DNA of 64,000 bases from NCBI RefSeq assembly GCF_022369515.1, contig NZ_CP059724.1, positions 4,960,001-5,024,000 on the forward strand, in the 5' to 3' direction. This DNA comes from Paenibacillus sp. 19GGS1-52 (GTDB lineage: Bacteria; Bacillota; Bacilli; Paenibacillales; Paenibacillaceae). Positions 1,479 through 45,173 of the stretch are shown in pieces. The position numbers were made by a program, and so were the translations under genes. The notes beneath the pieces were generated by a model. That model was not told the origin of the DNA, searched no databases, and saw only the letters and a program-made list of their open reading frames with translations. The first letter of the stretch is position 1, and each line of letters begins with the position of its first letter.

Positions 1479-2417
1479 CTAACTAATAATATCCTCAATT
1501 TGCTTCAACACTTCATCTGTAAGCTCTATACCAGAAGCTTTAACATTCTCCTCAACCTGTTCTGGACGACTCGCACCAACAAGCGCACTGGCTACATTCG
1601 GCTGACGTAAGATCCAAGCCAAGGCCAGATTTCCGACTGAAATATTCAGTTCAGCAGCAATTGTGCCCAACTGGCGGACTTGTTCGATCTTTTCTTCTGT
1701 AATGCCTTTGCGCATCCAATCCAGCTTAGCCGCACGGCTATCTGCAGGAATGTCAGATATGGAACTGTATTTACCAGTCAGCAATCCTTGCGCTAGCGGA
1801 GAGAACACAACCTGTCCAATACCCTTCCGCTGCCCAAGCGGGATAATCTCTTTCTCGATATAACGCTCAAACATATTATAAATAGGTTGATTGACGACAA
1901 TGTGATCGAGCAGGTAACGATCCGCTACAGCCAGCGCTTCCGCCATTTGTGCAGCCGTCCATTCACTAACACCAATGTAATACACTTTGCCTTGGCGAAC
2001 CAGATCATCCAGTGCACGCAAGGTCTCCTCTATCGGAGTCTCCGTATCATAACGGTGGCAATAGAGAATATCCACATAATCTTCACCGAGCCGCTTTAAG
2101 CTGGCATGACACTGCTCTGTGATATGCTTACGGGAAAGTCCACGATCATTAGGTCCTTCACCCATATCACCATATACTTTTGTTGCCAATACATAAGATT
2201 CGCGCGGATATCCACGTAATGTCTCACCCAATACCTTTTCCGCTGCACCCTTCTCATATACATTAGCTGTATCGAAAAAATTAACACCTAATTCGTAAGC
2301 GGTTTCAATGGCTTTGACAGCATTCTCCTTCTCTACATATCCTCCGTATGTCAGCCAGCTGCCTAAGCTGATTTCACTAACTTTAAGACCGGTTCCACCT
2401 AGTCTGCGATATTTCAT
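1479..2417 (-). CDS. aldo/keto reductase
   Basis: This 312-residue cytosolic NADPH-dependent oxidoreductase belongs to the aldo/keto reductase superfamily, KCNAB/YghZ-like branch. The catalytic tetrad is visible: D49 and Y54 (FDTANVY), K80 (LATKV) and H121 (YCHRYD). The start at 2417 is chosen because AGGAG lies seven bases upstream; the longer frame would include that site. It heads an operon with two SDR genes and is divergent from an HxlR regulator, the usual arrangement for a redox-responsive or electrophile-responsive reductase. The physiological carbonyl substrate is not known. Confidence 0.92.
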   Translation of the reverse strand: MKYRRLGGTGLKVSEISLGSWLTYGGYVEKENAVKAIETAYELGVNFFDTANVYEKGAAEKVLGETLRGYPRESYVLATKVYGDMGEGPNDRGLSRKHITEQCHASLKRLGEDYVDILYCHRYDTETPIEETLRALDDLVRQGKVYYIGVSEWTAAQMAEALAVADRYLLDHIVVNQPIYNMFERYIEKEIIPLGQRKGIGQVVFSPLAQGLLTGKYSSISDIPADSRAAKLDWMRKGITEEKIEQVRQLGTIAAELNISVGNLALAWILRQPNVASALVGASRPEQVEENVKASGIELTDEVLKQIEDIIS

Positions 2418-2545
2418 CCGTATTGCTCCTCTCAATATCCTACTGTTATCATTAGTAGGGTTGCTTCAAGTTCATATTCATTCTAGAATAGTTTATATAT
2501 AATAGAAAGAAGTGAAAAATAGTTTATTATATGATCCCTAATATA

Positions 2546-2569
2546 GTTGCTATACTCTAGTATAGTAAC
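2546..2569. promoter_or_regulatory. Near-perfect palindrome, candidate HxlR operator
   Basis: GTTGCTATACT and AGTATAGTAAC form an 11-base inverted repeat with one mismatch and a two-base centre. It lies 21 bases before the hxlR-type start and within the divergent promoter region shared with the reductase operon. HxlR proteins bind as dimers to such sites and usually repress the divergent gene. Binding is inferred. Confidence 0.5.
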
Positions 2570-2590
2570 ACCGGAGCAGGAGGAGATTCC

Positions 2591-2935
2591 TTGAAAACGG
2601 TTAAATCTGCCAGTAATTATATCCCCAAGAGCCCTGTTACAATTGAATGTAATGTGGAAAAAACACTAAATGTGCTAGGTGGAAAATGGGCGTTCCTGGT
2701 TCTGCGAGAATTGTTCGATGGAACCCAGCGTTTCGGAGCGCTGCAGCGCAAAATTGACAATGTCAGCCCTCGTGCCCTGACTACTACTCTGCGCCATCTA
2801 GAGGAGCAAGGTGTACTTGAACGCCATGTTTTTCCGACCGTCCCAGTCACAGTAGAATATTCCTTAACGCCAAAAGGCGAGGATTTGCACCAAATCCTGA
2901 AAGAAATGAAGCTGTGGTCAGCCAAATGGACGTAA
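2591..2935 (+). CDS. HxlR-family winged-helix transcriptional regulator
   Basis: This 114-residue DNA-binding protein has the HxlR/MarR-like signature: a Cys near the N-terminus (IECNVEKTL), the conserved GGKWAFLVLREL helix, the recognition region SPRALTTTLRHLEEQGVLER, and the wing EYSLTPKGEDL. It starts with TTG after GGAGGAGA. Many HxlR proteins sense electrophiles or oxidants through a single N-terminal Cys and control a neighbouring reductase. The divergent aldo/keto reductase operon is the obvious target, and a palindrome between the two genes is a candidate operator. Confidence 0.9.
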   Translation: MKTVKSASNYIPKSPVTIECNVEKTLNVLGGKWAFLVLRELFDGTQRFGALQRKIDNVSPRALTTTLRHLEEQGVLERHVFPTVPVTVEYSLTPKGEDLHQILKEMKLWSAKWT

Positions 2936-2964
2936 CGGCCGCAAACCTATCTTTTTAATAATTC

Positions 2965-3017
2965 AAAAAATCCCCTTCGAGTAACAGTTGCTATACTGCT
3001 GACTCAAGGGGGTTTTT
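2965..3017. terminator. Bidirectional Rho-independent terminator
   Basis: The arms CCCCTTCGAGT (2972-2982) and ACTCAAGGGG (3002-3011) pair almost fully. An A-run flanks the left and a T-run the right, so it can stop both the hxlR transcript and the converging peptide operon. The loop contains an exact copy of the hxlR operator half-site (2987-2997). Confidence 0.8.
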
Positions 3018-3046
3018 CGATACATGAAATCATATAATTATTCAGC

Positions 3047-3322
3047 TTAAAGGGCCTGCTCAGATTCTAGAATAGCATGAATTTCCAAGAAAAAAGCAAA
3101 CAACTCCTCAACATCATTTACCGCTTCGATATAATTGCAAGAGTAGGCCTGAGTCATATTCTCCGCGATTTGAGATGCCTGATTCAGACCATTAATATGA
3201 TCCCATATGGTTACGGCAGTATCATTGAGCGTATAGGCTTTACCATTACCGAATAATATCGTTTGCCCTCCTATAACTCGTTTGCGAAAATGTATTGATT
3301 TCTTATAAAGAATATCATCCAT
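3047..3322 (-). CDS. PqqD-like peptide chaperone (RiPP recognition element)
   Basis: This protein of about 91 residues has the PqqD fold pattern: an N-terminal beta segment (RVIGGQTILFGNGKAYTLN), then TAVTIWDHINGLNQASQIAENM and a helix with DVEELFAFFLEIHAIL. PqqD-type RRE proteins bind the leader of a precursor peptide and deliver it to the radical SAM or other modifying enzyme. It is the last gene of the operon and follows the nucleotidyltransferase directly. A TTG three bases upstream (3325) is an equally spaced alternative start. Its presence is a strong argument that the operon modifies a ribosomal peptide. Confidence 0.82.
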   Translation of the reverse strand: MDDILYKKSIHFRKRVIGGQTILFGNGKAYTLNDTAVTIWDHINGLNQASQIAENMTQAYSCNYIEAVNDVEELFAFFLEIHAILESEQAL

Positions 3323-3325
3323 CAA

Positions 3326-4141
3326 TTAGAATTCTCCCTTCTGCCCGATCCCGTCAATTATAAAATTAATAAACTCTAACAGCCGCTCTGCCTGTTTTCC
3401 AATCTCCTGTCTATCCATATTTGAACAATGAAACAAGAGCTGATTTACTCTTTTGAGAATAAAGGCAGCCTCAGGGTCCTCTAGAGCCAACGAATTCAAA
3501 AGAATATAGGTCCACTTTTTCTTGTCCAACGTCCGTTGTTTAGAGAATAAGAATGCCTGCACTGCTTTGAAAAGAGCGTCATGTGCAATAATATAAGCGG
3601 TCTCGAATTGTGAGATTTCCAGATTTCCCAGAATATCATCATAGTCATTATCAATACTATTAATCAGCTTTCTACTCATAAATTTGCAAAACTTCGCTTG
3701 ATCCAGCCGATTGCGAGCTTGAAAATAACTCTGCTGATTAAAAATAGGCTTACTTACAATAAAACGATGTAATAACGATGTCACATCATCAAGAGAGTAG
3801 CCAACAATATCAATTTGATTATTAGTCCTTATACTCAAATCTTCGAAATTCAGTGCCTTTACTTGTTTAAGCAAACTTTCTACCACGGCCTCCGGCCAAT
3901 ATTCGATATCGCAATTGACTCCTTGTACCGTAACAAAAGTGGTCTTCACATCGTCGTTGTTATAGACAATTTCTTCGATATCGTTTAAGGAGTGAAATTC
4001 TTTCTTAATAACAAACACATCTAGATCTGATTTTGAATTACCAATTCCTTGGATCAGCGATCCACTCAAAAAAACATAATCCTCATCATTAAGAGCAATC
4101 GCTTTTAACAACTCCTCTTTAATCTCATCAATATTAAGCAT
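3326..4141 (-). CDS. Nucleotidyltransferase-fold protein
   Basis: This 271-residue protein begins with a DNA-polymerase-beta-like nucleotidyltransferase core: G27-S28 in LSGSLIQGIG, D39 and D41 in SDLDVFV, and a third acidic residue near D78 (CDIEYW). The rest is helical and may be substrate-binding. Such enzymes transfer NMP groups to small molecules, proteins or phosphorylated peptides. Similar proteins occur beside HPr-kinase-like genes in some Bacillales lasso-peptide clusters. Here it lies between the ABC permeases and the PqqD-like gene, preceded by AAGGAG. A role in tailoring or self-protection is inferred, and the acceptor is unknown. Confidence 0.75.
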   Translation of the reverse strand: MLNIDEIKEELLKAIALNDEDYVFLSGSLIQGIGNSKSDLDVFVIKKEFHSLNDIEEIVYNNDDVKTTFVTVQGVNCDIEYWPEAVVESLLKQVKALNFEDLSIRTNNQIDIVGYSLDDVTSLLHRFIVSKPIFNQQSYFQARNRLDQAKFCKFMSRKLINSIDNDYDDILGNLEISQFETAYIIAHDALFKAVQAFLFSKQRTLDKKKWTYILLNSLALEDPEAAFILKRVNQLLFHCSNMDRQEIGKQAERLLEFINFIIDGIGQKGEF

Positions 4142-36243: not shown

Positions 36244-37284
36244 TTGAGAGTACACGTCACGGATCTAAAACCCGGTCATTTCTTGGGAGAAGATACCTTT
36301 AGCTCCAGAGGACTTCACGTATTACCTAAAGGTACAAAACTTCGGATAGAAGAAATCGCCAAGTTGATGCAACACAGCGTAGACTATGTTGATATCGAGG
36401 TAGTAACCGAAGAGCCTGCCCCTAAAGGCAGAGCGTCTATTATTAAAGCCGTGACCGGAAATTTTGACAATATGATTGACGGTTTCGAATCTGTATATAT
36501 GGAGGCGTTGACTCAAGGACGTTTTAATCAATCACTTGTAGATGATGTACTTCAACCCTCGCTGCAATCACTGGACAAACATAAAGATGTCGTCTCTTTG
36601 CTACTGCTGCTTGACCGTGAAGATGATTATACCTATAATCACTCCTTACAGGTAGGCATGCTTTCTTACTATATAGCAACTTGGCTCGGATATTCTAAAC
36701 GGGAATGCTACGAAATTGGCCGAGCCGGGTATCTGATAGACATAGGCAAATGCCGAATTTCACCGGCTCTACTCAACAAGCCAGGAAAGTTAACTTCACT
36801 AGAGTTTGAGGAAGTTAAACTCCATACTACATACGGTTACGAGATTATCCGCAATTCCATGGATGACAAACATACAGCTCTGGTTGCCCTTCAGCACCAT
36901 GAACGTGAAGATGGTTCCGGCTACCCCGGTAATCTGACTGCATCCGAGATTCACCCTTACGCCCAAATCGCAGCTGTAGCTGATATTTACAGTGCTATGA
37001 CCACACCAAGGGTTTATCAGTCCAAGCAGGAATTGATTTCAGTTCTACGTGAAATCCACAATCTCAGCTTCGGCAAGCTCAACCCAAAAACAGTACAAGC
37101 CTTTATCCAGCATTTAATGCCCAACTTCATCGGCAAGCGCGTATTACTAAGCACAGGCGACATGGGTGTAATTGTTCTAAACAACCCCATTGATGTCTTC
37201 CGCCCACTAGTGCAGAGCGGTGGGAAGTTCCTCGACCTGTCCCGTGACCGCAATATCGCTGTGGTGGAGATTTATATGGAATAA
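36244..37284 (+). CDS. HD-GYP domain protein with degenerate HD site
   Basis: This 346-residue paralogue of the protein at 31713 has the same N-terminal domain and an HD-GYP domain. HHEREDGSGYP at 218-228 is intact, but the metal-binding HD pair reads I165-D166 (LIDIGK). Loss of this His usually abolishes phosphodiesterase activity, so the protein may be a c-di-GMP sensor or a partner of the active paralogue. It starts with TTG after AAGGTGG. It is 64 bases after moaDE and probably has its own promoter. Confidence 0.9.
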   Translation: MRVHVTDLKPGHFLGEDTFSSRGLHVLPKGTKLRIEEIAKLMQHSVDYVDIEVVTEEPAPKGRASIIKAVTGNFDNMIDGFESVYMEALTQGRFNQSLVDDVLQPSLQSLDKHKDVVSLLLLLDREDDYTYNHSLQVGMLSYYIATWLGYSKRECYEIGRAGYLIDIGKCRISPALLNKPGKLTSLEFEEVKLHTTYGYEIIRNSMDDKHTALVALQHHEREDGSGYPGNLTASEIHPYAQIAAVADIYSAMTTPRVYQSKQELISVLREIHNLSFGKLNPKTVQAFIQHLMPNFIGKRVLLSTGDMGVIVLNNPIDVFRPLVQSGGKFLDLSRDRNIAVVEIYME

Positions 37285-37448
37285 CCCTTCCAAGGGAGGG
37301 CTCAGAAGGGCTCCGCCCTCTGGACGCCTGGAAGCTTGGCGGAACATCGCGGTTATTGTGGACGAATGGGACTATGGATCGTCAGCCCGCCTTGAGTCAC
37401 CCTGCTTTGCTGCGCAAAGGGCGGATGGCTCAAAGCTACATTAAATAA
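37285..37448. other. GC-rich intergenic stretch without a gene
   Basis: This stretch is richer in G and C than its surroundings and contains short inverted segments (GGGCTC...CCGCCC and TTTGCTGCGCAAA). No ribosome site or conserved reading frame was found. It may be an intergenic repeat element. Confidence 0.4.
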
Positions 37449-37496
37449 GGGTAACCTAACAGTCATGTGATTTAATGACTGTAGGTTACCCTTTTT
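37449..37496 (+). terminator. Strong Rho-independent terminator
   Basis: A long stem pairs GGGTAACCTA-CAGTCAT with ATGACTG-TAGGTTACCC around an eight-base loop, followed by TTTTT. It ends the HD-GYP transcript and may also act on the converging bgl gene. Confidence 0.92.
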
Positions 37497-37523
37497 CCTA
37501 GAGAGATACTCTAGCTTTATCTT

Positions 37524-39011
<1,488 letters not shown>

Positions 39012-39039
39012 TCAATGTGATTGATGTAGCCTTAGCTAT

Positions 39040-40407
39040 CTAGTTAACCACTGTTAATAGGTATTCCCCATTTTCCACATTCATCTCAGCGCTTTTGAGG
39101 ACATCCAAATAATTAGCCGAATTGGTTACTATAATTGGTGTAGCCGTTATGAAACCCGCTGCCCTGATCGCTTCTACATCAAATTCTAGCAGCAACTGTC
39201 CTTGCTTCACCTTATCTCCTTCTTTTACCCGTTTCTCGAAGAACTTACCCTTTAGCTTCACTGTATTGACGCCAACGTGGATTAAGAGTTCAGCCCCTTC
39301 ATCGGAAGTGATGCCGATTGCATGTCCTGTTGGAAAGATCGTCGTAATAGTTCCGTTTACAGGTGAAGTCAACCTGCCGGAGGAGGGTTCAATCACAATC
39401 CCTTTACCCATTGCCCCTGAGGCAAAGGCTTCATCTGGCAAAGACTCTAGCGATTGAAGGCTGCCCGACAAGGGACTGACAATTACTTCTTTTTCAATTA
39501 AACTATTCGCTGTATAAGTTGGAATTTCAGGGGTTTGCTCTGGACTGGCTACGGTTGGATCATCAAAGCCCAAGACAAATACAAGCAGAAGTGCAAGTAC
39601 AAAGGACACGACTAAACCGACCACAACCCACACAAATCCGGTTCCAAAATAAGTCGGCAAGGCCAGCAGACCTGGCAGGGAGAATGCTAAAGCTCTTGCT
39701 CCGCCGACAGCTATAATAGCGCCGCCTATTGCGCCGGAAACACAGGCATAGATAAATGGTTTTTTTAATTTAAGCGTAACCCCATAGATTGTAGGCTCTG
39801 TGATACCAAACACCGCAGCCAGGGTTGATGACCCTGCTAAAGCTTTCATTTGCGAATTTTTCGATTTCAAGAATACCCCGAATACTGCACCCGCTTGAGC
39901 AAGGACTGCTGCAGACAGGATAGGCAGCATCGTATCGTAGCCCAGACTGGCTATATTGCTCAGCATGATCGGGACAAATCCCCAATGAACACCAAAGATT
40001 ACAAAAACCTGCCAGAATGCTCCTGCGATTGCACCCGCCGCCAGCGGACTAAGATTATATAGCCATGTATAACCTGAAGCCAACCCGTCACTAATCAGGG
40101 AACCTACAGGACCAAAGGCTAGAAATGTCAAAGGAATCACAATCAGCAACGCGAACATTGGTACAAGTATATTTCTAACCGATTCATGAATAAAGGAACG
40201 AAACCATTTCTCTATATAAGATTGCACCCAAACCGCTAGGATAATTGGGATTACACTAGAGGAATAATTCACAAGAATAATAGGTATCCCGAGAAAACCC
40301 AATGAATCTGTACTGCCAACTGCAGCAATAATTGACGGATAGATTAAGGCCCCTGCCACCGCAACGGAAACAAATTGATTAGTCTGGAATTTCCGGGTGG
40401 CAAAATC
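39040..40407 (-). pseudogene. 5'-truncated beta-glucoside PTS EIIBCA (bglP-like)
   Basis: The remaining sequence encodes most of EIIC (about eight membrane segments, starting FATRKFQTNQFVSV) and a complete EIIA with the phosphorylated His in LLIHVGVNTVKLKGKFF. EIIB (about 90 residues with its Cys) and the first part of EIIC, about 180 residues in all, are absent. The homology begins at 40407 just after in-frame stops and has no ribosome site; the first GTG is at 40359. The preceding antiterminator gene is cut at the same place, so one deletion probably removed both ends. EIIA could still be functional if translated. Confidence 0.85.
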
Positions 40408-40427
40408 GACGTTTCTTAACGTTCATT

Positions 40428-40895
40428 TTACCGTGAGTTCAGGTTTTTCTTGAAATATAAGGCAGTATAGTTGTGAATAAATTTGAGCGCATCCATCCCG
40501 ATTGAGAATTCTTTCTGATAGAAGCGTTTAATTTCGAACAACATCGCATTTTTGAGCACGATTCCTTTTTCGTAGCGCTGAACGGCAAAATGGATATGAT
40601 CGGTTAAGGTCAAATAAATATTATCACTTAGCTCAGTCCCTAGAATCTCATTTGCATAAGTAACAATTTCATTCGCCAATTCCAAATGGGCCACAGGAAT
40701 ATCGTTCAAAAGCTCGGTTAGCTTGGCCGTGAACTCATTCTCATTTAGCAGAAAAATTTTATCTACCTTGTCGGGATCGACGTAATCACCCGCTACCTTG
40801 TTAAAGGATATCCCTCTACCCATCACAATGACTTCCTTACCTTTTTGGTTCTTGGTCAACAAGACATTGTTGTTGAGGACTTTCTCGATAATCAT
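40428..40895 (-). CDS. Truncated LicT/BglG-type transcriptional antiterminator
   Basis: This protein of about 155 residues has a complete co-antiterminator RNA-binding domain at 1-56 (NNNVLLTKNQKGKEVIVMGRGISF) and most of PRD1 to about residue 150. PRD2 is missing; the family is usually about 275-280 residues. The end FKKNLNSR is not family sequence. CAT domains without PRD control are known to be constitutively active in LicT, so the fragment could keep the operon switched on. AGGAGGTG precedes the ATG; a TTG at 40898 is an alternative. The leader carries a matching RAT site and terminator. Confidence 0.85.
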   Translation of the reverse strand: MIIEKVLNNNVLLTKNQKGKEVIVMGRGISFNKVAGDYVDPDKVDKIFLLNENEFTAKLTELLNDIPVAHLELANEIVTYANEILGTELSDNIYLTLTDHIHFAVQRYEKGIVLKNAMLFEIKRFYQKEFSIGMDALKFIHNYTALYFKKNLNSR

Positions 40896-40927
40896 CAATA
40901 TTTCACCTCCTGCATCATATTTTGTAC

Positions 40928-40987
40928 AAAAAAAGCCTAAGTTGATCCCAATATCATTTAGAAAATGATACTCGAATCAGCTTAGGC
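40928..40987 (-). terminator. Conditional terminator in the licT leader
   Basis: The arms GCCTAAG and CTTAGGC (extended through TGAT/ATCA) close a long stem, followed on the minus strand by TTTTTTT. An inner hairpin ATCATTT..AAATGAT forms the top. The 5' arm overlaps the RAT by three bases, so RAT folding prevents termination. Confidence 0.88.
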
Positions 40988-41013
40988 ATTGCCCACGTTA
41001 GCGGTCACAATCC
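40985..41013 (-). promoter_or_regulatory. RAT ribonucleic antiterminator site
   Basis: The minus strand begins GGATTGTGACCG and ends GGGCAATGCC, matching the RAT pattern GGATTGTTACTG...GCAGGCAAAACC bound by SacY/LicT/BglG CAT domains. It lies between the promoter and the terminator of the antiterminator gene, indicating autoregulation. Confidence 0.85.
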
Positions 41014-41025
41014 TGTATTAATAAT

Positions 41026-41053
41026 ATTGTAGCATAAAATTAAGCGATTACAA
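41026..41053 (-). promoter_or_regulatory. SigA promoter of the bgl operon
   Basis: TTGTAA (41048-41053), a 16-base spacer and TACAAT (41026-41031) on the minus strand, about 13 bases before the RAT. Confidence 0.7.
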
Positions 41054-41200
41054 TATTTTTATTCGCCGATGACGAATTAGTGGATATAACCGTTGTTGAT
41101 CTTTCCAAGGTTTAACATCTTTAATATTGGGTTAAACTGATCTGTGCATGAAATCAACAACAGCCCTGCTATACATTTTTCGAAAAAGAGGCTGATCCCA

Positions 41201-41449
41201 ATGCTAACCGTTCATGAGCGTCTTGCTGAGCTATTCATTCTAAGCCGTCAACGCCGGCTTACTACAACTGAAGAAGCCGAGCAGCAGCAGTGCTTACAAG
41301 TAAATGCTATGTATTACTGGGAGCTGGCGCGCCTAAACAATGAAGCTCTTCTGGCCGCTCGTACCGAGGATGCCGAATGGCAGCACGATATTGGTGCACA
41401 GCTGTTTGAATTACGCGTAACAGGCAGAGTGTCCAGACGCCGAAAGTAA
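41201..41449 (+). CDS. Small hypothetical protein (DUF7667-like)
   Basis: This 82-residue, soluble, helical protein has the pattern LTVHERLAELFILSRQRRLT, then AMYYWELARLNNEALLAARTEDAEWQHDI. It resembles small Paenibacillus proteins of unknown function, possibly DUF7667; the match is from memory. The start at 41201 is chosen because AAAAAGAGG lies nine bases upstream. It is divergent from the bgl operon and converges on the exporter genes, with a terminator after it. Function unknown. Confidence 0.7.
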   Translation: MLTVHERLAELFILSRQRRLTTTEEAEQQQCLQVNAMYYWELARLNNEALLAARTEDAEWQHDIGAQLFELRVTGRVSRRRK

Positions 41450-41480
41450 GTAATCTCCTTGGCAGCTTGTAATGAAATAA

Positions 41481-41537
41481 CAGCAGCCCGCTCCCCTATT
41501 GATTCTGCAAAGGGAAGGGGACTGCTGCGTTTGAACT
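41481..41537. terminator. Bidirectional terminator between convergent genes
   Basis: CAGCAGCCC-CTCCCC pairs with GGGAAGGGGACTGCTG around a loop of about 14 bases. The plus side continues GCGTTTG and the minus side TTATTTC. It separates the small gene from the exporter operon. Confidence 0.7.
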
Positions 41538-41546
41538 AACTTTTAA

Positions 41547-43406
41547 TTATAGAAACCTGAACTGCGCTTCAATCAGACCGTTATAAACTCCGTCATGGGA
41601 GGTTAGTTCACGATGGGTTCCTTCTTCTTTGATCTCACCATGATCCAGAACGACAATTTTGTCGGCATGTCGAATCGTTGATAATCGGTGAGCGACGATA
41701 AATGAAGTTCGGCCCTGCAGCAGAATCTTAAGCGCATTCTGAATCTTCAGCTCCGTCTCCGTATCAATACTCGCTGTCGCTTCATCCAGGATCAGAATTC
41801 GTGGATTGGCCAGCAGCGCCCTAGCAAAAGACAAAAGCTGCCGCTGTCCCATGGACAACGCACTGCCACGTTCTTCAACCTCCGTCTCATAACCTCCGGG
41901 AAGCTTGGTGATGAAGTCATGTGCATCCACCGCTTGAGCAGCTTCCTCCACTTCCTCGTCGGTGGCATCGAGCCGCCCAAAGCGAATATTATCCCGAATC
42001 GTTCCCGAGAAAATAAATGTGTCCTGCAAAACGATACTGACCTGCGTGCGCAGACTTTCCAACGTGACCTCACGAATATCAGTGCCGTCAATCGTAATTC
42101 GGCCGTCCGTAATATCATAGAACCGGCTAATGAGGTTAATGATAGTACTTTTACCGGAACCTGTATGACCGACAAGCGCGATCGATTGCCCCGCCTGGAC
42201 GTCGAGACTAATACCCTTTAAAGCTGCACGCCCCTTTTCATATTCAAAAACAACCTGATCAAACTTGATGTCGCCACGAATCGTTGGCAGTGGTTTCGCT
42301 CCAGGCTTATCTTGAACCGATGGCTGCTCATCCAAATACTCAAAGATCCGTTCTGAGGAAGCCATCGCTACCAGCAACTGATTATACATCTGCCCCAGAC
42401 GATTGATAGGGTCCCAGAAATTACTCACATAAGTACTGAAAGCGACTAGAAAACCTATGGTAAGTTCACCCGATTCGATAAGATGAGCTCCATACCAGAA
42501 CAGAATCATGGTTCCGAAGCCGCCGGTGATCTCAATAATCGGACCAAACGCTTGGTTCATCGCCGAAGCCTTATTCCAGGATTTTCTGCTATCAGTATTC
42601 ATTGCATCAAAATAATTCATATTTTCCTGTTCTTGCGTATAGGCCTGCGTAACTCTTATCCCTTGAATCGATTCATTCAGATGTGAATTGATCCTGGAGT
42701 TCTTCATCCGCACATCCTGCCAAGCAAGCCGAATCTTCTGGCGCAGCTTGGTCGAGACTAAGAACATGACCGGAACAGTAATCATCACCGCAAGACCCAG
42801 CTTCCAGTTAAGCAGCAGCAAAATAACCATAATACCAAGTAGTTGCACACAATCGATCATCAAATTGACGACCCCGTTCGTGAACAGATCCTGCAGCGAG
42901 TTGATATCATTCGTTACCCGTACCAATACTGAACCAGCCGGACGTTTATCGAAAAAGTTGAAGGACAGCTTCTGAATATGTCTGAACAAGTCCGAGCGCA
43001 GATCATAAATAACTCTTTGTCCGATCACATTGGTATATTTAATCCGGTAAACACCAGCGATCCATTGTATTAAATATAAGACAACTACACTAGCCGTAAG
43101 CGTGTAAAGAAGGGTCAGACTTGGGTGTCCATCCTTGGGAGCAATCGCCTTGTCTATGGCGAGACTCGTCAGGAAGGGGACCGTCAGCTTGGTAATCGTC
43201 CCGAGAATCATCATGATCGACACGAGCGGAAGCATCTGCCTCGCATATGGCTTCATGTAGCCGAACAGTCTGGTGAACTGCTTCCAGTCGAATGCCTTGT
43301 CAATCAGATCATCGTCTTTATATACAAAACGCTCATCAAGAATTTCTGCTTGTGTTTTCTTATTCTTCGAACCCCTGGCTACATTATGATTAGCTTCAAG
43401 TTTCAT
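41547..43406 (-). CDS. ABC exporter half-transporter (BmrD/YheH-like)
   Basis: This 619-residue protein has a six-helix type I exporter membrane domain (about 50-345) and a C-terminal ATPase domain. The ATPase has Walker A VGHTGSGKST, signature LSMGQRQLLSFARAL, Walker B ILILDEATASID with the catalytic Glu, and switch His in VAHRLSTI. It follows its partner by six bases. The pair matches the heterodimeric multidrug exporter BmrCD, in which this subunit holds the catalytic glutamate. Likely substrates are drugs or lipophilic compounds. Confidence 0.92.
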   Translation of the reverse strand: MKLEANHNVARGSKNKKTQAEILDERFVYKDDDLIDKAFDWKQFTRLFGYMKPYARQMLPLVSIMMILGTITKLTVPFLTSLAIDKAIAPKDGHPSLTLLYTLTASVVVLYLIQWIAGVYRIKYTNVIGQRVIYDLRSDLFRHIQKLSFNFFDKRPAGSVLVRVTNDINSLQDLFTNGVVNLMIDCVQLLGIMVILLLLNWKLGLAVMITVPVMFLVSTKLRQKIRLAWQDVRMKNSRINSHLNESIQGIRVTQAYTQEQENMNYFDAMNTDSRKSWNKASAMNQAFGPIIEITGGFGTMILFWYGAHLIESGELTIGFLVAFSTYVSNFWDPINRLGQMYNQLLVAMASSERIFEYLDEQPSVQDKPGAKPLPTIRGDIKFDQVVFEYEKGRAALKGISLDVQAGQSIALVGHTGSGKSTIINLISRFYDITDGRITIDGTDIREVTLESLRTQVSIVLQDTFIFSGTIRDNIRFGRLDATDEEVEEAAQAVDAHDFITKLPGGYETEVEERGSALSMGQRQLLSFARALLANPRILILDEATASIDTETELKIQNALKILLQGRTSFIVAHRLSTIRHADKIVVLDHGEIKEEGTHRELTSHDGVYNGLIEAQFRFL

Positions 43407-43412
43407 ACGGCC

Positions 43413-45173
43413 TCACTCCCCCACTCTTCCGGCATCTCTTGCCAAATAATCAGCGTATTGAATCCGGTAGACGTCTTGATAGGGACCGGGCACCTCGATA
43501 AGCTCTTTATGTGTACCTCGCTGAATCATACGACCTTCATTCATAACAACGATCAGATCGGCATGCCGCAACGAGGAAATCCGGTGGGCAATAATAAGTG
43601 TTGTGCGCCCTCGCATAACCTCTTGGAAGCCTGCTTGAATCTCATGCTCTGTCTCCATATCAACAGCGCTGGTCGCATCATCGAGTATAAGAATCCGCGG
43701 ATTCTTCAGCAGAGCTCTAGCGATCGCAATCCGCTGCTTCTGTCCGCCGGAAAGACCCATTCCGCGTTCGCCTACAACCGTTTCGTACCCCTCCGGCATC
43801 TCCATTATAAATTCATGTGCTTTTGCTAATTCTGCAGCCCGGATAATCTCATCCATCGTCACATTCTTCAGACCGTAGGATATATTATTGCGAATAGAGG
43901 AAGAGAACAGAAAGGTCTCCTGAAATACAGTTGCAATTTGCGAACGCAGGCTGCGAACATTGTATTCCCTAATATCAATACCGTCCAGCGAAATACTCCC
44001 TTCATTAACGTCATAGGCGCGCATCATCAGCTGTGTAATCGTTGACTTACCGGAGCCTGTGCCCCCGAGAAACCCGATAACTGCACCTGAAGCTGCTTCA
44101 AAATGAATGTTTGTAACCGCCGGCATTTTGTTCCCATAGGCGAAGGTTACGTGATTAAATACAACATCTCCTTTGACTTCTGCAGCGATAAGTTCACGGG
44201 CAGTATCTTGATCCTTCACATCTATCTGCTGGTTAAGCACCTGAAGCACACGTTCACCTGAAGCCTTGGATTGTGTGTAGTTATTAATATGGAAGCCGAG
44301 GCCCCATACTGGCCCGATAATATACCAGATCAAGCTGAAGAAGGCAACCAGCTCTCCTAGCGACATGTCTTTATTAATGACGAGCGTTCCGCCTACTCCC
44401 AGCAGGATCGCCACGCTGACTGAAGCCAGCAGCTCCATGACTGGAAAATATTTGCTCCATAACTCAGCGGCAAAAATTTGGTTGTTCTTATAGCGTTCAT
44501 TACGGTGTGAGAACTTCTCTACCTCGTAAGCCTCTCTGGCAAACGATTTGACGGTCCGTACACCAGTTACATTCTCCTGAACAGCCGTGGTTAGCGAGCT
44601 TAGTGCAAGCCGCATCTCCTGAAAGGCCGGATGAATCTTGGACTCAAATCGAAAAGCTACAGCAGCCAAAAATGGCATGGTTATCAAAGTGACTAGTGTT
44701 AGCTGCCAATTAATCGTGAACATCATGATAGAACCAAAAAACACCATAAAAAATACATTCAGTAGCTGGGCGAAACCAAAACCAATAAATAAGCGAATCG
44801 CTTCCAGATCCCCGGTCAGCCGGGACATCAAGTCACCTGTCTTGGCCGTATCGTAATAACGGAAAGACAGAAACTGCAACTTCTCATAGCAGGCATTGCG
44901 CAACCGGTAGGCGAGAAAGTTACCTAGCCGCCCGCCAAAAAATCCGTGTGCAAATTGCAGACATGCTTTCACGAATACTACAGCCAGCACACTGAGTGCT
45001 AATACGGGCACCTCTGTGAACTTCATAGGTACAATAACATCATCAATTAACCTTCTTAACAAGTTCGGGGTTATGAGCCCCACTGCAGTTGCCGCGGCCA
45101 AGCATACAATTGAAAGAATCAAAAAATGTAGCTTTTCCCGGTAAAAGCCCCGCAGTTGCCTGAGAACTTCCAT
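43413..45173 (-). CDS. ABC exporter half-transporter (BmrC/YheI-like)
   Basis: This 586-residue protein starts at the ATG at 45173 (GGAGGAGA upstream); the frame extends further only because a leader repeat is in phase. It has a type I exporter membrane domain and an ATPase with Walker A GGTGSGKST and signature LSGGQKQRIAIARAL. Walker B is ILILDDATSAVD, with Asp replacing the catalytic Glu. This makes a degenerate site, as in BmrC and similar heterodimers, where one ATP site hydrolyses and the other only binds. The gene is first in the operon. Confidence 0.92.
   Translation of the reverse strand: MEVLRQLRGFYREKLHFLILSIVCLAAATAVGLITPNLLRRLIDDVIVPMKFTEVPVLALSVLAVVFVKACLQFAHGFFGGRLGNFLAYRLRNACYEKLQFLSFRYYDTAKTGDLMSRLTGDLEAIRLFIGFGFAQLLNVFFMVFFGSIMMFTINWQLTLVTLITMPFLAAVAFRFESKIHPAFQEMRLALSSLTTAVQENVTGVRTVKSFAREAYEVEKFSHRNERYKNNQIFAAELWSKYFPVMELLASVSVAILLGVGGTLVINKDMSLGELVAFFSLIWYIIGPVWGLGFHINNYTQSKASGERVLQVLNQQIDVKDQDTARELIAAEVKGDVVFNHVTFAYGNKMPAVTNIHFEAASGAVIGFLGGTGSGKSTITQLMMRAYDVNEGSISLDGIDIREYNVRSLRSQIATVFQETFLFSSSIRNNISYGLKNVTMDEIIRAAELAKAHEFIMEMPEGYETVVGERGMGLSGGQKQRIAIARALLKNPRILILDDATSAVDMETEHEIQAGFQEVMRGRTTLIIAHRISSLRHADLIVVMNEGRMIQRGTHKELIEVPGPYQDVYRIQYADYLARDAGRVGE

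Follow-up and report, generated by a model that had tools for sequence, protein, structure and literature searches.

A licT-bglP-bglA operon of Paenibacillus sp. 19GGS1-52 probably broken by a single deletion-inversion event

Introduction

The beta-glucoside operons licT-bglP-bglH of Bacillus subtilis and bglGFB of Escherichia coli encode an antiterminator with the architecture CAT-PRD1-PRD2, an EIIBCA permease and a GH1 phospho-beta-glucosidase, and the isolated CAT domains of the antiterminators SacY and LicT antiterminate constitutively. When the sugar is absent, the cognate EII phosphorylates PRD1, which prevents dimerization, and when the sugar is present HPr phosphorylates PRD2 (PMC7430163). 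The bglG gene of E. coli is described in PMC1489936 as flanked by two terminators, and the relatives of the genome studied here carry a RAT-terminator on either side of licT, as in the known bgl operons.

The operon of Paenibacillus sp. 19GGS1-52 has the same gene content and order as those of B. subtilis and E. coli, but its licT, its bglP and its second RAT-terminator are destroyed. The window that was analyzed is the whole stretch of 64,000 nucleotides at G000:C1:4960001-5024000. The source genome consists of one contig of 6.83 Mb with a completeness of 100%, and its species is represented by this one genome in the comparisons. Very probably one deletion-inversion event broke the operon, replacing approximately 1.13 kb (from PRD1 to EIIC) with a 72-76 bp inverted intergenic fragment and leaving a remnant that would no longer import or sense beta-glucosides.

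Organization of the operon

The licT-bglP-bglA type operon occupies positions 37524-41053 of the window on the minus strand. Its parts are listed below in the order of transcription, with the inverted scrap and its joint to licT placed between the two truncated genes.

41026-41053, minus strand: promoter-like sequence TTGTAA-16-TACAAT with a TG before the -10 (consensus match only; common to Paenibacillus monticola)
40985-41013, minus strand: RAT antiterminator site (GGATTGTGACCGCTAACGTGGGCAATGCC), which overlaps the leader terminator (pattern match)
40933-40990, minus strand: leader intrinsic terminator, a stem-loop followed by a T tract (RNA fold; same element in P. monticola)
40428-40895, minus strand: licT', the CAT RNA-binding domain and two thirds of PRD1 from its 5' end, followed by 13 foreign residues and a TAA stop (155 aa counted from the ATG)
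40470-40473, no strand: joint of licT and scrap with an overlap of 3-4 nt, GTT[G] (base-level alignment)
40398-40473, plus strand: inverted scrap of the lost licT-bglP intergenic region (blastn opposite-strand match to P. monticola L035 10445-10369)
39040-40397, minus strand: bglP remnant (bglP'), EIIC without its first part and the whole EIIA_1 domain, EIIB absent (domain profiles and P. monticola match)
37524-38993, minus strand: bglA-type GH1 6-phospho-beta-glucosidase, 489 aa, intact (Pfam PF00232, E 2.7e-129; NF007158)

The leader retains an intact RAT that overlaps an intact intrinsic terminator, the arrangement of a cognate RAT, and the segment 40930-41020 folds with -35.8 kcal/mol (z -6.4). 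The promoter-like sequence TTGTAATCGCTTAATTTTATGCTACAAT (41026-41053) may also loosely resemble a CcpA cre site.

In the open reading frame 40428-40898, the domain profile search identifies a CAT_RBD at the N-terminus (PF03123, E 1.1e-21, profile positions 1-54 of 57) and a partial PRD, the match to which ends at position 74 of 90 (positions 2-74), in agreement with the initial annotation that licT stops within PRD1. Residues 2-146 of LicT' are colinear with the LicT CAT-PRD1 structure 6twr, and the CAT domain is colinear also with the solved LicT CAT 1l1c. The N-terminal architecture is thus common to LicT' and the 6twr construct, but the natural truncation ends earlier, before H159, and adds 13 foreign residues; the inverted scrap encodes these residues (YTALYFKKNLNSR) and supplies the stop codon. 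H100 is retained, whereas H159 and both PRD2 histidines (H207 and H269) are lost. Against NF046042 (BglG/SacY antiterminators), LicT' scores 188.8 bits, below the cut-off of 300, and it does not contain two complete PRDs. LicT' is a LicT-derived pseudogene and not a full NF046042 member.

The frame 39040-40422 contains a partial EIIC (positions 69-319 of 319) and a complete EIIA, and the bglP remnant corresponds to residues 167-619 of P. monticola BglP with 97% identity. Its match to TIGR01995 (beta-glucoside PTS IIABC) starts at profile position 164 of 618 and reaches 531.8 bits, compared with a cut-off of 614.7; an EIIB with its phosphorylated cysteine and a full EIIC, which a full IIABC has in addition to EIIA, are missing. 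The remnant has no ATG; translation could begin no earlier than a GTG at 40359, and no ribosome site is visible for it. Downstream, the 6-phospho-beta-glucosidase is intact, as had been read from the frames alone: the bglA product has a full-length GH1 domain and scores 667 bits against the NF007158 cut-off of 639. It is the sole GH1 homologue found in the source genome.

The junction and its probable origin

The nearest relative compared, P. monticola LC-T2 (G037, locus L035), has an intact operon in the same order, with licT of 280 aa, an intergenic region of 207 bp, bglP of 619 aa and bglA of 489 aa, and the neighbors on both sides of the operon are common to the two genomes. The window is collinear with L035 at approximately 93% up to 40397 and again from 40470. 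Missing from the window is L035 9796-10921 (1,126 bp). This stretch encodes the last part of PRD1, including H159, the whole of PRD2, EIIB and the portion of EIIC up to BglP residue 166, and it also carries the second RAT-terminator. What the initial annotation listed as gone (PRD2, intergenic region, EIIB and the first part of EIIC) is thereby borne out. The proposal of a deletion holds insofar as approximately 1.1 kb is lost, but the deletion is not a plain one, since a piece of the intergenic sequence persists at the joint in inverted orientation. Similarly, the gap between the licT stop and EIIC is short, but it measures 30 bases (40428 to 40397) rather than about 20.

The inverted scrap matches L035 in the opposite orientation over 77 columns with 94.8% identity (blastn, E 2.6e-27), and the base-level view agrees. 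It comprises the loop and the 3' arm of the second RAT terminator and approximately 20 bp past the arm; the 5' arm and the RAT of this terminator are absent. The homology to licT ends at 40470 and that to EIIC at 40397, so that licT and the scrap overlap as listed above and the scrap and EIIC meet at 40397/40398 with zero overlap. Relative to P. monticola, the net exchange is approximately 1,126 bp for 72-76 bp. The intact intergenic hairpin of P. monticola folds with -36.5 kcal/mol (z -6.5), compared with a weak -15.2 kcal/mol for 106 nt (z -1.6) for the scrap in its present orientation. An Rfam search of the region at a relaxed threshold returned chance-level matches alone, all below the gathering scores.

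Judged from its product, the event fits best with a template switch at the palindrome of the second terminator. The replicating strand most likely stalled near this strong palindrome, switched to the opposite strand, copied approximately 76 bases backwards and rejoined further along, which would give the scrap between licT' and bglP'. Between two unique flanks lies a short piece of the palindrome that once separated them, copied in reverse, and this is the geometry of a short-range template switch: an inverted local copy, unique flanks and a single event. Template switching at quasi-palindromes in bacteria has been reviewed (PMC10710837), and the short template-switch mutations described there are similar to the present junction in that a short inverted copy lies beside a strong hairpin and the joints share few bases, if any, of microhomology. 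However, the net loss here is approximately 1.05 kb, which is beyond the small indels and substitutions of that review.

Alternatively, end-joining repair may have produced the junction, in line with the EIIC joint, which has no microhomology. A history of at least two separate events, in which the terminator hairpin was first inverted from arm to arm and a deletion followed, is improbable. The arms could serve as an inversion site, being repeats in opposite orientation with an outer stem of 12 pairs, but the inverted piece has no 5' arm and extends approximately 20 bp past the 3' arm, for which an arm-to-arm inversion alone is insufficient, and a single event with two switches is simpler. A simple deletion between direct repeats was rejected because the joint holds inverted sequence and the flanks share no repeat. 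An assembly or library artefact, with the chromosome in fact intact, is a highly unlikely source of the junction: the scrap does derive from a palindrome, a sequence type prone to foldback artefacts, but a foldback would be expected to duplicate the flanks and not to delete 1.1 kb between two unique points, the complete genome is a single contig, and the scrap diverges from P. monticola by an ordinary amount.

Distribution and age of the truncation

The truncation is absent from all 80 related loci examined, which were taken from genome_contigs, and in each of them the open BglP frame extends 157 codons or more upstream of where it is cut in the window. The licT frame and the licT-bglP RAT-terminator are present in 22 of the 22 nearest loci (Paenibacillus and Saccharibacillus). 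The truncation is thus derived and private among the genomes seen. The second RAT-terminator of the 22 nearest loci (licT-bglP intergenic, L040-L061) shows several changes with the hairpin seemingly kept, and this set would suit a covariation test. Additionally, the bglP orthologue of another Paenibacillus (L139, G077:C14:167500-171682, positions 2224-4078, minus strand) lies in three frames with two apparent frameshifts near a contig end; either this gene has decayed there independently or the frameshifts are sequencing errors.

Between the window and P. monticola, dN/dS is 0.055 for bglP', 0.049 for licT' and 0.052 for bglA, and the intact neighbors range from 0.025 to 0.061. In bglP', the non-synonymous and synonymous changes number 4:10 on the window branch and 4:8 on the P. 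monticola branch, which are small counts; in bglA, 7 non-synonymous and 23 synonymous changes on the window branch indicate little relaxation. Relaxed selection is not seen in the licT' and bglP' remnants: their dN/dS lies within the range of the neighbors, and the window branch has no excess of amino-acid changes. Since the remnants still exhibit purifying-type divergence (dN/dS of approximately 0.05), the event is recent relative to the split from P. monticola.

Consequences for uptake and antitermination

The initial annotation considered the operon unable to import beta-glucosides by its own PTS and named an intact second licT-bglP as one observation that would speak against this. The source genome was searched for an intact second LicT-BglP or beta-glucoside IIABC, and none was found. 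Because BglP is broken, with EIIB and the EIIC start missing, and no intact second licT-bglP was found in the genome, the loss of import through the operon's own PTS is well supported and almost certain. The operon would also no longer sense beta-glucosides through BglP.

The other EIIC matches in the genome are of the glucose and GlcNAc types, fructose, mannitol, a MurNAc/sucrose-like IIBC and one stand-alone EIIC. The other PRD antiterminators were rejected as a second licT, as they adjoin glucose/GlcNAc-type EIIs and one scores as GlcT; a PRD protein of 692 aa was rejected as well and lies near a mannitol PTS. The stand-alone EIIC is of the BglP type (373 aa, G000:C1:2763218-2764345; L128 6228-7349, plus strand), with no EIIB or EIIA beside it and 43% identity to the BglP EIIC. 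Its conservation at 97% in P. monticola (G037:C10:61443-62570) suggests that it is being kept as an orphan. A transposase-like ORF of 478 aa (G000:C1:2767965-2769401; L128 10965-12401) lies a few kb from it. At the broken bgl operon, no transposase-like ORF is found among the ORFs of 37000-44000.

The RAT pattern matches once in the source genome, before licT', and twice in P. monticola, and all three matches are in the bgl operon. A wider LicT regulon on which the CAT domain could act in trans is unsupported by this single genome-wide match. The LicT regulon appears from these patterns to be the bgl operon alone, and effects elsewhere should therefore be small.

Within the operon, constitutive CAT activity with readthrough into bglA is plausible because the CAT domain and the leader RAT-terminator are intact. 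There is about an even chance that LicT' is a working, unregulated antiterminator, the CAT dimer of which binds the leader RAT without inducer and renders bglA constitutive; the event may then even have been favored. The CAT_RBD is nearly complete (54 of 57 profile positions) and colinear with 1l1c and 6twr, and nothing resembling a terminator in the operon direction was found from licT' or the scrap to bglA. Additionally, the inhibitory EII-dependent phosphorylation of PRD1 (PMC7430163) needs BglP, which is broken here. However, the PRD1 stub lacks the domain end including H159 and carries the foreign residues, and such stubs can degrade or dimerize poorly; a benefit of bglA without substrate import is also not evident.

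A silent operon is nearly as likely as constitutive readthrough. LicT' would then be inactive or unstable, transcription would not pass the leader terminator, and all genes of the operon, bglA among them, would be silent and starting to decay. The strength of the leader terminator (-35.8 kcal/mol) and the partial PRD1 with its foreign tail are consistent with silence, as is the lack of an evident substrate supply for bglA, given that no other intact BglP-type PTS was found. The intact bglA, with its dN/dS of 0.052 and few non-synonymous changes on the window branch, argues against it, but the event is perhaps too recent to tell.

More tentatively, the event may have made a working minimal CAT-only LicT, which would constitutively antiterminate its own leader and drive an orphan phospho-beta-glucosidase; this is possible but rather doubtful. 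Such a protein would be a natural counterpart of the laboratory CAT-only constructs.

Conclusions

The broken beta-glucoside operon is an ordinary pseudogenization with an unusually clear and informative scar. Its footprint of loss is a known kind of gene breakage and leaves the known biology unchanged, and it provides a clean, recent snapshot of a carbohydrate operon dying in one step. The coupling of the deletion to an inverted copy at a terminator palindrome suggests that RAT-terminators themselves can act as fragile sites. An active LicT' would additionally make the locus a natural test of PRD-free antitermination.
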